Shown: positions 34,513 through 60,977 of the stretch, piece after piece
Layout: the number at the start of each line of letters is the position of its first letter
How positions within the stretch are numbered: the first letter of the stretch is position 1
From: Anaerolineae bacterium
Lineage (GTDB): Bacteria; Chloroflexota; Anaerolineae; Aggregatilineales; J027
DNA length: 64,000 nt
Assembly: GCA_021463865.1 (NCBI GenBank)
Contig: JAJTXY010000005.1
Coordinates: 62,001 to 126,000 of the forward strand
Direction: 5' to 3'
The notes under the pieces: generated by a model
Database searches by the model: none
What the model was told of the DNA's origin: nothing
Seen by the model: the letters and a program-made list of their open reading frames with translations, nothing else
Program-made: the position numbers and the translations under genes

Positions 34513-35622
34513 TTAGGGCCGTGCCTCTAGGGTGATTTCAACGTTTTGGGTTGCTCCGTCGCGGATAATCGTTACCGTGACCACATCTCCCGGTTGAGTT
34601 GTATCCAGAAAACTGACCAAATCGCTCATGCTGGCGATGGGTGTGCCATTAATCGCGGTAATCACGTCGCCTGATATGCTCAAACGCCCCAGCGACGTTC
34701 GGATTTCATTACTCGAACCGCGAATTCCGGCTTCGGCTGCTGGGCCACCTCGTTGAAGATCGCCCACCAATACGCCTTTGGTATCAGCAGGCAGGTTCAT
34801 CGCCTCGATTTGCTCAGGGCGCAGTGTATTGCCTGTGATGCCAAGCCATGTATGTTCATAACTGCCATATTGAATTAAATACGGCACAACCCGCCGCACT
34901 GTGTTGGAGGGCACTGAAAAACTCACGCCGGAGCTACTGCCGGATTCCGTATTGATGGCGGTGTTGACCCCAATCACATTACCCGACATATCCAGTAGGG
35001 GGCCGCCGCTGTTACCGGGATTAATGGCCGCATCGGTCTGGATGACTTCGGGGATGCTAAAATTGCTTTCGGCGGTCAGACTGCGGTCTAGGGCACTGAC
35101 GATACCCGTAGTCAGGGTAAACGATTGTCCGAATGGATTGCCAATTGCCAAGACCTGTTGCCCGACGAACACCTGATCCGAATCGCCGAGAGTAACAGGG
35201 TATAAAGTCAGCCCGGAAGGATCAATTTTGATGACCGCCAAATCGGAATCGGGATCACGCCCGACCACCGACGCCTCCCGAATCGTGCCATCCGCGAAGG
35301 TGACTTCGATATATTGAGCGCCTTCGGCCACATGGTTGTTGGTGACGATATGGCCGTCAGTGTCAATCACAAAACCGCTACCTTCACCAAACGCATTGGC
35401 TTTGACGACGGATATGTTGACGACAGATTGTATTGCCTGTTCATAAAGTTGATTGAGGCTCAACTCAGTGGTATTGGGTTGATAGGGTGCGCCCGAAGGC
35501 AGAGGGTCGAGACGATTGCGGTTATCTTGGGCCTGTACCCCAACGACGACTCCGATGGCGAACACCGAAGCGAATACCATAACAATAACACTCACCCACA
35601 TGAGACGCTTCATCGCGTTCAT
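34513..35622 (-). CDS. HtrA/DegP-like serine protease with PDZ domain
   Basis: 369 residues. An N-terminal helix (MWVSVIVMVFASVFAIGVVVGV) acts as anchor or signal. The trypsin-like domain has the triad His in TNNHVAEGAQ, Asp in DPDSDLAVIKID and Ser in INPGNSGGPLLD. A PDZ domain covers about 270-369 (GVLVGDLQRGGPAAEAGIR, GDVITAINGTPIASMSDL). It degrades or refolds damaged proteins in the envelope. GGAGG lies 11 bases before the ATG at 35622. The protein is complete and of normal length for one-PDZ HtrA. Confidence 0.95.
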   Translation of the reverse strand: MNAMKRLMWVSVIVMVFASVFAIGVVVGVQAQDNRNRLDPLPSGAPYQPNTTELSLNQLYEQAIQSVVNISVVKANAFGEGSGFVIDTDGHIVTNNHVAEGAQYIEVTFADGTIREASVVGRDPDSDLAVIKIDPSGLTLYPVTLGDSDQVFVGQQVLAIGNPFGQSFTLTTGIVSALDRSLTAESNFSIPEVIQTDAAINPGNSGGPLLDMSGNVIGVNTAINTESGSSSGVSFSVPSNTVRRVVPYLIQYGSYEHTWLGITGNTLRPEQIEAMNLPADTKGVLVGDLQRGGPAAEAGIRGSSNEIRTSLGRLSISGDVITAINGTPIASMSDLVSFLDTTQPGDVVTVTIIRDGATQNVEITLEARP

Positions 35623-35769
35623 ACCAATTCATTCCTCCCTATACATCACTTGCGAATTGGAAACCAATAATCAAGCATAGCCAGATTTTGTTATCACTTT
35701 AGATGCGATTTGTAAAAAATCTATTACCCGAAGGTTGTGAGTACCTTAAAACTTCTTGAGGAACAAGTG

Positions 35770-35909
35770 ATACCAAATTCGCCTGATTGACTTACAAAAA
35801 AACTGGTGGAGTCACAGACTCCACCCTACGAAAATGCGGTGAATTTCGCGTAGGGAGGGGTCACAGACCCCTCCTCTTGAAAAGCGAATCATTTATCCGA
35901 ATCTGGTAT
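35770..35909. mobile_element. 140-bp MITE-like element with two look-alike hairpins
   Basis: Ends are 12-bp inverted repeats with one mismatch, ATACCAAATTCG (35770-35781) and CGAATCTGGTAT (35898-35909). Inside are two hairpins with the same 5-base loop CACAG and 8-bp stems of different sequence: GGTGGAGT/ACTCCACC (35805-35825) and GGAGGGGT/ACCCCTCC (35854-35874). A central CCCTACG/CGTAGGG pair (35824-35830, 35849-35855) joins them. There is no coding potential. It sits between htrA and the LysM gene. Mobility is inferred from structure, and no copy elsewhere can be shown here. Confidence 0.6.
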
Positions 35910-35922
35910 GAGCAAAGAAAAA

Positions 35923-35981: not shown

Positions 35982-37670
35982 TTACTTCTCGATCCCCTCG
36001 ACGGCAAAGAAGACAGGTTTGGGATTGCCAGCGGGGTCGAGCAAACTCCAATAGCATTCCGTCGAGCCGATGCCAAAGACCTCACAGAAATTCAGGTTCC
36101 ACAGGAACATTGGCCCAACAAAGCCGAGTTCGTTGCCAGTCTGGAAGGCGCGGATCGTATATTGGGATTGTTCGTCTAAGCTGGTGAATTCCACAAATCC
36201 CAAGTTCGGATTGACATCACCGGGTAGATTTTCCGAACTGGCCCAACCAAATTCCGTCACCCACAAGAAGCGCCCGCTGTCATTAAATTCACCCATAATG
36301 GCGCGGTAATCTTGCAGGGTGTTTTGGAAGAAGAAACTGGGGTGATCGTCCCAACCCGTAATTTGAGGATTGGTTTCGCAACAGGTCGAATCAGGTGGGT
36401 TGCCAAAACCAAATGGATGGATGCCGATAGCATCAGCCACGTTATTGACGCCCGCCTGATACATCTGGCGCAGGAAGTTGCGGTCACTAATGGCATTATC
36501 GGCGCTGTCCAAGCCCGTCGGAGCGAGGCCCGCACTCACCACCACCGCTGCTGAATCGGCAGCCTTGACGGCAGTATAACCGGCCCGCAGCAGATCAACA
36601 TAACCTGCCGCGCTGAGGGGTTTGCCATAGGCCTTGCCGTTCCATTCCCGGCGCAAATTCGGTTCTTTCCAGATTTCATAGGCATCTACACGACCAGCAT
36701 AACGACTGGCGAGTACGGTCATGAAATTGGCGAAATCCTGATTATCGGTGGGGGGGCCATTTTCTTCTGTCGCGCCGCGTGCCCAATCGGGAGCATCATA
36801 CACGGTCAGCATAATGTTAAAGCCCGCGCCGTCGAGTGCATCAATCACCGTGTCAATATCATCAAAATTGATATTGCCTTTGGTTGGTTCAAAGGTGGCC
36901 CATGAAATTTCCTGTTTTACCCAACGCACCCCCAATTGGGTCAGTTTATCCACCACGACGGCGGTATCCTGCCCAAATAGCTGGACTTGGATGCCATAGT
37001 CGAAGGGTACTGCCGAGGCTGGGGCGCCAGACGGTGGGGCCGGGGTGGTCGCTTCTTCGGTTACTTCACCTCCGGTTGCTTCAGAAGTAGCGGCGGGTGC
37101 GGGTGTCGTGGGTGCAGGGGTAGTTGCCGCTGGGGTGGTCGCTACAACAGCCGGGGTCGTGGCAGCAGGCAAAACCGCCCCCGGAGCAGGAATCTGAAGC
37201 TGCATCCCCACAAAAATCAGATTGGGATCCGTGATGCCATTGACTTGGCTAATGGCTTGAACGGTTGTCCCGTACTGTAAGGCGATACGATAAAGATTTT
37301 CCCCGGCTTTCACCACATGTACCGTTGGGCCTGCGGGTGGTGGGGTCGTGGGAGCGGGGGTAGTTGCCACTGGGGTAGTTGGCACAGGCGTTGTAGGGGT
37401 AACAGTGGGCGTTGTGCCTACCGGAATTTTTAAGACCTGCCCCACGTAGATAAGATTTGGGTTGCTGATATTGTTGGCTTGAGCGATGGCATAAACTGTC
37501 ACCCCATATTGACGGGCGATTCCGTACAGGCTTTCGCCGCGCTGAACCACATGTTGCGTAGGCTGTTGCCCACCATCTTGGGCCGATGCGAGACGGGGTG
37601 CAAGGATAAGAACGCTCACCATTATCGCCAACAACCCGATGGCGATGAATAAACGGTAGACACGTTGCAT
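35982..37670 (-). CDS. Secreted LysM-repeat protein with a glycosidase-like TIM barrel
   Basis: 562 residues, signal peptide 1-30 (RVYRLFIAIGLLAIMVSVLI ... ASAQ). Two LysM repeats follow, HVVQRGESLYGIARQYGVTV (about 40-85) and HVVKAGENLYRIALQYGTTV (about 118-162), each ending in LKIPVG/LQIPAPG. Thr/Pro/Ala-rich linkers join them (TPTVTPTTPVPTTP). The C-terminal 320 residues are a GH39/GH5-like barrel with IWKEPNLRREW and VTEFGWASSENL, whose glutamates are the expected acid/base and nucleophile. LysM binds peptidoglycan or chitin-like glycans. AGGAGG lies seven bases before the ATG. Target polymer unknown. Confidence 0.85.
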   Translation of the reverse strand: MQRVYRLFIAIGLLAIMVSVLILAPRLASAQDGGQQPTQHVVQRGESLYGIARQYGVTVYAIAQANNISNPNLIYVGQVLKIPVGTTPTVTPTTPVPTTPVATTPAPTTPPPAGPTVHVVKAGENLYRIALQYGTTVQAISQVNGITDPNLIFVGMQLQIPAPGAVLPAATTPAVVATTPAATTPAPTTPAPAATSEATGGEVTEEATTPAPPSGAPASAVPFDYGIQVQLFGQDTAVVVDKLTQLGVRWVKQEISWATFEPTKGNINFDDIDTVIDALDGAGFNIMLTVYDAPDWARGATEENGPPTDNQDFANFMTVLASRYAGRVDAYEIWKEPNLRREWNGKAYGKPLSAAGYVDLLRAGYTAVKAADSAAVVVSAGLAPTGLDSADNAISDRNFLRQMYQAGVNNVADAIGIHPFGFGNPPDSTCCETNPQITGWDDHPSFFFQNTLQDYRAIMGEFNDSGRFLWVTEFGWASSENLPGDVNPNLGFVEFTSLDEQSQYTIRAFQTGNELGFVGPMFLWNLNFCEVFGIGSTECYWSLLDPAGNPKPVFFAVEGIEK

Positions 37671-60637: not shown

Positions 60638-60709
60638 GCCGTTGTAGCTCAATGGCAGAGCATTCGCTTCGTAAGCGAGAGGTTATGGGTTCAACTCCCA
60701 TCAACGGCT
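60638..60709 (+). tRNA. tRNA-Thr, anticodon CGU
   Basis: Complete cloverleaf: acceptor GCCGTTG/CAACGGC, D arm GCTC/GAGC, anticodon stem TTCGC/GCGAG around the loop TTCGTAA with anticodon CGT at 60670-60672, T arm ATGGG/CCCAT. Reads ACG. The CCA end is not encoded. Confidence 0.95.
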
Positions 60710-60721
60710 CAACAACATACT

Positions 60722-60977
60722 CCACTGCAATGATGGCGAGGAGTAGGTGATTTGAGATGTGCAGAGAGGGTTATGATTGGTGCAAGTAACCCCATCATCA
60801 CCGCCGAAGGTCGCGCCAGAGCAGATGCCCCGAAAATTGAGTAAGGGTATCCGGGTTTGCCCGTTACAGCATGAATGAGTGCTCTACCTGCTGAACTAGG
60901 GGTAGGGAACTAAGGTGGTACCGCGAAAGTAACAGCCCTTTCGTCCTTTAGCAATATTGTGACGGAAGGGTTTTTTT
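60722..60977 (+). ncRNA. T-box leader, predicted to sense tRNA-Val
   Basis: The T-box element AAGGTGGTACCGCG is at 60912-60925, and the AGTA (60742-60745)/GAA (60806-60808) pair forms the loop E part of Stem I. The specifier after GAAG is GUC (60810-60812), a Val codon, with helix GGTGAT/ATCACC above and TGGCG/CGCCA below. The TGGT of the T-box pairs with an ACCA end, as in tRNA-Val (discriminator A). When tRNA-Val is uncharged the antiterminator forms. The next genes are a methyltransferase and valS, in agreement. Boundaries of the leader are approximate. Confidence 0.92.
60936..60977 (+). terminator. T-box regulated intrinsic terminator
   Basis: CCCTTTCGTC (60936-60945) pairs with GACGGAAGGG (60961-60970), one G-U pair, followed by TTTTTTT. 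The left arm overlaps the antiterminator region just after the T-box element. Confidence 0.9.

Follow-up and report, generated by a model that had tools for sequence, protein, structure and literature searches.

A TNA-duplicating MITE with a GTAG REP dimer at its core, probably driven by an IS630 transposase, in an uncultured genus of Chloroflexota

The window, by which we mean the whole stretch of 64,000 nucleotides that was analysed, lies on contig C45 of a 4.9-Mb draft genome (G000, here the host genome) belonging to an uncultured genus of Chloroflexota. Between an HtrA-like protease gene with trypsin-like and PDZ domains (34513–35622, minus strand) and a LysM/cellulase-like gene (35982–37670, minus strand) we found a MITE of 138 bp, which adjoins a terminator-like site downstream of the LysM/cellulase-like gene. 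It is short and non-coding, with terminal inverted repeats (TIRs) of 11–12 bp and no open reading frame of at least 80 amino acids overlapping it in the ORF list. On the minus strand the first of its two hairpins, together with a run of T, has the score of an intrinsic terminator, and through this insertion the HtrA-like gene may have gained a terminator on its upstream side. A preliminary description of this DNA had raised the possibility of RNA binding or processing, for which we found no evidence. A scan of the window against Rfam at the gathering threshold gave no family at the MITE, and only a T-box and a tRNA elsewhere. This tRNA-Thr (anticodon CGT) ends about 11 bases ahead of the T-box leader on the same strand (60638–60951).

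The features of the element are listed in Table 1. The preliminary description had proposed 12-bp TIRs with one mismatch, ATACCAAATTCG and CGAATCTGGTAT, which are present, and had placed the ends at 35770 and 35909, each of which is one base too far outward; comparison with empty sites sets the limits and gives a length of 138 bp instead of 140, with a 3-bp target-site duplication, TGA, on each side. The two plus-strand hairpins with identical loops were also found as described, GGTGGAGTC-ACA-GACTCCACC and GGAGGGGTC-ACA-GACCCCTCC, but the loop is ACA and not CACAG, the flanking C and G being paired with each other, and between the stems there are two paired differences (T:A/A:T and A:T/G:C) where three had been counted. 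There is extra pairing, CTACG with CGTAG, between the hairpins. The fold is far from chance, at −53.8 kcal/mol as RNA (z = −5.9) and with z = −5.2 as DNA; none of 200 shuffled sequences was equally stable in either case. CGTAG stands at the foot of each hairpin with the tails facing inward (a TT dimer), and both hairpins are GTAG-tagged REP palindromes.

Table 1 Position, strand and basis of the features of the MITE in the window
Feature	Position	Strand	Basis
Left copy of the target-site duplication, TGA	35768–35770	+	Sequence, empty sites, TNA rule
Whole MITE, TACC...GGTA, 138 bp	35771–35908	+	Sequence, copies, empty-site alignment, flank triplets
Left TIR, TACCAAATTCG	35771–35781	+	Sequence and genome-wide counts of the terminal repeat
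First GTAG-type REP palindrome, 9-bp stem, loop TGT relative to its tail	35805–35825	−	GTAG tail on the minus strand
CTACG, the CGTAG tail of the first REP	35826–35830	−	
CGTAG tail of the second REP	35849–35853	+	
Second GTAG-type REP palindrome, 9-bp stem, loop ACA (TGT in the copies on C49 and C52)	35854–35874	+	
Right TIR, CGAATCTGGTA	35898–35908	+	Sequence and genome-wide counts of the terminal repeat
Right copy of the target-site duplication, TGA	35909–35911	+	
Terminal repeat of the MITE family, in two forms, TACCAGATTCGG and TACCAGATTCGGGTGT			

A sequence search identified two close copies in the host genome (E = 5e−61 and 2e−41), one on C49 (95% identity over 149 bp) and one on C52 (98% over 96 bp, cut by the contig end), as well as a diverged copy on C35 and partial matches. 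Matches were found in 3 of 61 genomes including the host, all three within the genus. The terminal repeat is more widespread: with up to two mismatches it was counted 54 + 48 times in the host genome, versus 25 + 32 for a reversed control, and with one mismatch 51 + 59 times in G002 (control 2 + 4), which holds the most copies, and 8 + 10 times in G003 (control 2 + 3), while G001 (5 + 5 versus 3 + 2) and G004 (5 + 4 versus 2 + 4) were near the control level. Several types of interior lie behind these common ends, including a 90-bp type around AACAATGGGTTTAAACCCATTGTT, a 131–149-bp type with CCCCATCCC, a 111/123-bp type with GGGTCAG hairpins and the type seen in the window. One insertion of the 90-bp type is orthologous in two species (G000:C43:12240 and G002:C17:11367), the host copy being 8 bp shorter in the hairpin. 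At two G002 loci (L135 and L146) copies of the 111/123-bp type are split by another element, whose ends are GAGGGTGTCTAAAAAG. A 215-bp element of the same genome (L120, 842–1056 of the locus, G002:C211) has a REP pair within the central hairpin of the 90-bp type, an arrangement which suggests stepwise nesting.

We compared the flanks of 45 end pairs from the loci collected in the genus, and an identical TNA triplet stood on both sides in 36. Among the 45 pairs, none of which was removed, two share a right end (L145), two are orthologous (L048 and L084) and a few are probably chance pairs (L079, L175). The remaining nine comprise four with unequal TNA triplets and five without TNA on both sides. 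The window site itself lacks the MITE in all four relatives searched in the genus (G001 to G004), its flanks adjoining in G002, G003 and G004 and lying 38 bp apart in G001. Alignment of the junction is informative for G003 and G004 only, the rows of G001 and G002 being on the opposite strand; G003 has the length of a site with a single TNA, reading TAA, and G004 is one base shorter. For three of five further insertion sites in the host genome the exact pre-insertion sequence with a single triplet was found in relatives: TCA (in G002), TGA (in G004 and G002) and TTA (in G003). Of the other two, one is empty but diverged (L029) and one was matched on the right side only (L033). At L043 the site has an 8-bp deletion in G003 and gave only a partial match in G001. 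A 2-bp TA duplication is ruled out, since the exact empty sites carry a single TNA. The shared TNA flanks and the empty sites in relatives therefore identify the element as a MITE, one that is real, has moved in the past and has defined ends and a target duplication. Its earlier characterisation as a MITE-like mobile repeat thus holds, further copies, conservation of the structure and target-site duplications all having been found.

The duplication normally ascribed to IS630 elements is one of 2 bp, TA, and our literature search, which was limited in coverage, found no report of TNA duplication by this family. It is an IS630 element which we consider the likeliest partner of the MITE, one resembling ISAva6 and known here only from fragments at contig ends. 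In the host genome (C57; C36 and C51) and in G003 the terminal repeat borders the start or the end of a transposase at contig ends. The start peptide is MNRIKITPHLTLEELEAGYRQATEATERTHYQI in G003, and its counterpart in the host genome matches it at 78% over 23 residues; the end peptide beside the terminal repeat is ...QDHPELVRSATCFHWWPAYA. In tblastn searches against plasmids, the start peptide matched cyanobacteria, best of all an unannotated stretch of Cyanobacterium aponinum (59%, E = 2e−5) and also ISAva6 of the IS630 family (45%, E = 0.2), and the end peptide matched a Thermus IS630 protein (68% over 22 residues, E = 9e−4, the best E value to an annotated protein). A profile search of the 32–33-residue transposase ends against Pfam and NCBIfam gave no match, these pieces being very short. 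Three of the four IS630 relatives that were inspected have equal TNA flanks (ISAva6 TGA/TGA, Thermus TGA/TGA and Stanieria TAA/TAA) and the fourth, Cyanobacterium aponinum, has unequal ones (TTA/TAA). The left flank on C57 and the right flank on C36 are both TGA, as for the two ends of one insertion. The IS630-like ends of G003 have the left flanks TCA, TGA and TTA and the right flanks TGA, TAA and TCA, so that two of the three left flanks have an equal right flank. A peptide search of 154 genomes of the order and a pattern scan of a contig collection, which returned three contigs, gave no complete autonomous copy, and the IS630-like peptide was not found in G002, where copies are most numerous.

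GTAG dimers without the MITE terminal repeats were found at one locus of the host genome (L192) and at seven loci of sister genomes (L178, L186, L188, L195, L199, L203 and L205). In a 464-kb sample of the host genome GTAG stood at the foot of 2 of 47 hairpins, both from the MITE in the window, and no other hairpin in that sample adjoined GTAG; a pattern search of the whole host genome gave eight sites, and the high copy number expected of GTAG REPs was not seen there. G002 encodes a RAYT of 180 residues (NF047646, REP-associated tyrosine transposase; 89.6 bits against a cut-off of 80), flanked by CGTAG hairpins of the form GGGATGGC-loop-GCCATCCC, whose stem is other than those of the MITE in the window. 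The same hairpins also lie inside elements with the ends of this MITE, at L120 and at L158, where the right end alone was recognised. PF01797 was matched at four places in G002, one with flanking GTAG hairpins (L073), two without (L061 and L066) and one within an open frame of 1254 residues (L070). A second RAYT-like protein, below the cut-off at 70.8, stands beside TAG-tagged hairpins in G005, from another genus of the family. No RAYT reached the cut-off in the host genome, where the sole PF01797 match (21.4 bits, sub-cut-off, inside an open frame of 783 residues) was rejected as a candidate. The REP/RAYT system appears to have been lost from the host genome, and we infer that the REP dimer inside the MITE derives from such a system.

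Comparison of near-identical copies revealed that the loops of these hairpins invert. The copy in the window differs from that on C49 by four substitutions and one gap, and three of the four substitutions turn the second loop from ACA into TGT. Between C58 and each of the copies on C15, C39 and C57, which contig ends truncate, there are just three substitutions, and together they invert a 7-base loop. Four substitutions separate C75 from C228 in G002, three of which invert the 7-base loop, and four separate C58 from C1, three of which are in the loop. Among 54 non-redundant hairpins with GTAG at the foot in the fetched loci, GTAG itself having been the search term, both loop orientations occur for several stems: GGGTCAG (10:3), GGAGGGGTC (4:2), GGAGGAGTC (2:1) and GGGATGGC (loops CCTGT and ACAGG, 3:1). 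It should be noted that these are comparisons of draft assemblies without reads. Template switching between inverted repeats has been described as inverting loops and giving compensatory changes in one step (PMC8794818, PMC8604942), with bacterial examples of loop inversion in PMC8794818. As template switching is known both to invert loops and to restore pairing, it explains both features without selection, and we infer it to be the cause of the loop inversions and of the paired changes. A literature search of limited coverage found no report of loop inversion in REPs; the fresh point here is the loop flipping, REP dimers inside longer palindromes being already in print.

The pairing of the differing stems had earlier been taken to point to selection on the RNA or DNA structure. 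Among six copies of the window type, hairpin 1 keeps its pairing throughout and has changed on both sides of the stem at two positions, hairpin 2 at one; altogether 4 of 34 stem pairs are changed on both sides. The covariation value was 0.112, versus 0.013–0.035 when the structure was slid along; one shuffle in 500 reached it, while 94 of 500 reached the number of doubly changed pairs, so the covariation is real in outline but small in number. Selection could keep the hairpins folded either as single-stranded REP DNA bound by a RAYT or as an RNA hairpin in a transcript (a terminator or stabiliser). The covariation is consistent with this, as is the terminator score of hairpin 1, and RAYTs bind folded single-stranded REPs, GTAG being important for cleavage (PMC8266576). 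However, the counts come from only six copies, no RAYT was found in the host genome, the loops invert between near-identical copies and in one case a stem pair has gone from A:T to T:A between copies which differ at only 5 of 123 positions (96% identical). The inversions also occur despite the loop sensitivity reported for one RAYT, that of S. maltophilia, whose cleavage is severely reduced with a reverse-complemented loop, although the E. coli RAYT keeps binding and cleavage after a loop swap (PMC8266576). Template switching likewise yields pairing and suffices for these changes. We therefore regard selection as a minority possibility, within which a requirement at the DNA level, with a RAYT recognising the folded single-stranded REP, is possible. 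That the loop inversions are artefacts of assembly or library preparation seems distinctly improbable: the genomes are fragmented, these are repeat copies and those on C15, C39, C57 and C52 lie at contig ends, but the copy in the window and that on C58 lie inside long contigs, and the same classes of inversion appear in the independent assemblies G000 and G002.

The identity of the moving transposase is also open to rival readings. TNA duplications are made by the IS1031 group of IS5, and in G002 the C-terminus of an IS5-type transposase (NF033580, 5e−5; PF13586, 0.0026) ends 27 bp inside the terminal repeat of the MITE family (L134, 968–1127 of the locus, G002:C305). As the IS630 peptide was not found in this genome, another transposase may be involved. 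The locus may represent two transposase families with one set of ends in common, or one nested in the other; the 44-residue IS5 peptide had no match among plasmids. An IS5-family element in place of IS630 is nonetheless doubtful as the partner, this being a single example in which an IS5 element may have landed within a MITE, a nesting of the kind that the chimeric ends at L135 and L146 suggest, and IS630-like ends are present in the host genome. If the element were an ordinary REPIN mobilised by a RAYT, its outer repeats being incidental, the inverted REP doublet and the RAYT and REPs of a sister species would be accounted for. This reading is hardly credible: the outer repeats form the exact limits of the insertions, where TNA is duplicated in the manner of a DDE transposon; members of the 90-bp type, which have no REP, insert in the same way; and the tails are inside. 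The empty sites contradict it, the limits of the mobile unit being the outer TIRs.

Our preferred reading, to which we give a probability of about 0.75, is that of a non-autonomous, TNA-duplicating MITE moved in trans, most likely by an ISAva6-like IS630 element, with a captured or locally formed TT GTAG REP dimer whose stems are kept paired and whose loops are flipped by template switching. The MITE would transpose by cut and paste, duplicating a 3-bp TNA target, and its ends, common to the other interior types and to the ISAva6-like element, would most likely be acted on by the IS630 transposase. The tail-to-tail dimer at its core would go back to a REP/RAYT system that persists in a sister species, and would have been either captured from that system or produced by it. 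During replication, template switching within the short inverted repeats would copy one arm onto the other and invert the spacer, which is why the stems would stay paired while changing and the loops would flip. The element, its ends, duplication and past mobility, the REP architecture and the loop inversions are direct observations. A further idea is that template switching flips REP loops often enough to decouple loop orientation from the rest of the element. As the S. maltophilia RAYT cleaves a reverse-complemented loop poorly, flipping would toggle a REP between recognised and unrecognised states. We think this unlikely; if true, homogenisation of the stems would keep REPs perfectly paired, and stems in mobile palindromes could come to covary through mutation, without selection. 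Clean natural cases of inverted loops in bacterial hairpins, such as these, warn that the stems of mobile palindromes can covary without selection on RNA, and, as loop flips can be counted, it could be possible to separate mutation from selection directly.

GTAG repeats have been reported in Chloroflexi by Di Nocera 2013 (PMC3733652), where dimers with the tails inside are named TT, alternative complementary stem residues are described in GTAG REPs and the dimers of Anabaena variabilis lie regularly within long palindromes, so the architecture of the REP dimer is known in kind. Compared with the TT dimers in that account, the MITE in the window is alike in its GTAG tail, 9-bp stem, short loop, inside tails and alternative complementary stem residues, and unlike in its low copy number, its position inside a TIR element with a target duplication and the lack of a RAYT found in the same genome. 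The GTAG-15 dimers of A. variabilis are alike in being regularly embedded in a longer inverted repeat, although the flanking palindrome differs from that of our MITE and, as far as that account goes, no target duplication is described for them (PMC3733652). QMITE2 of Coxiella is alike by description as a MITE containing a GTAG REP; its description in a MITE review (PMC10969869) mentions a GTAG palindrome and, as far as that description goes, no inverted pair. REPINs (Bertels and Rainey 2011, PMC3116915) share the folding inverted REP doublet, and compensatory spacer changes are reported for them, but the MITE has its tails inside, and what moves is the outer TIR element. ISAva6-like members of the IS630 family resemble the contig-end fragments in their terminal peptides and TNA-flanked ends, whereas the MITE in the window carries no gene. 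The REP dimer here travels as the passenger of a DDE-type MITE, which brings together two kinds of small mobile DNA that are usually separate.
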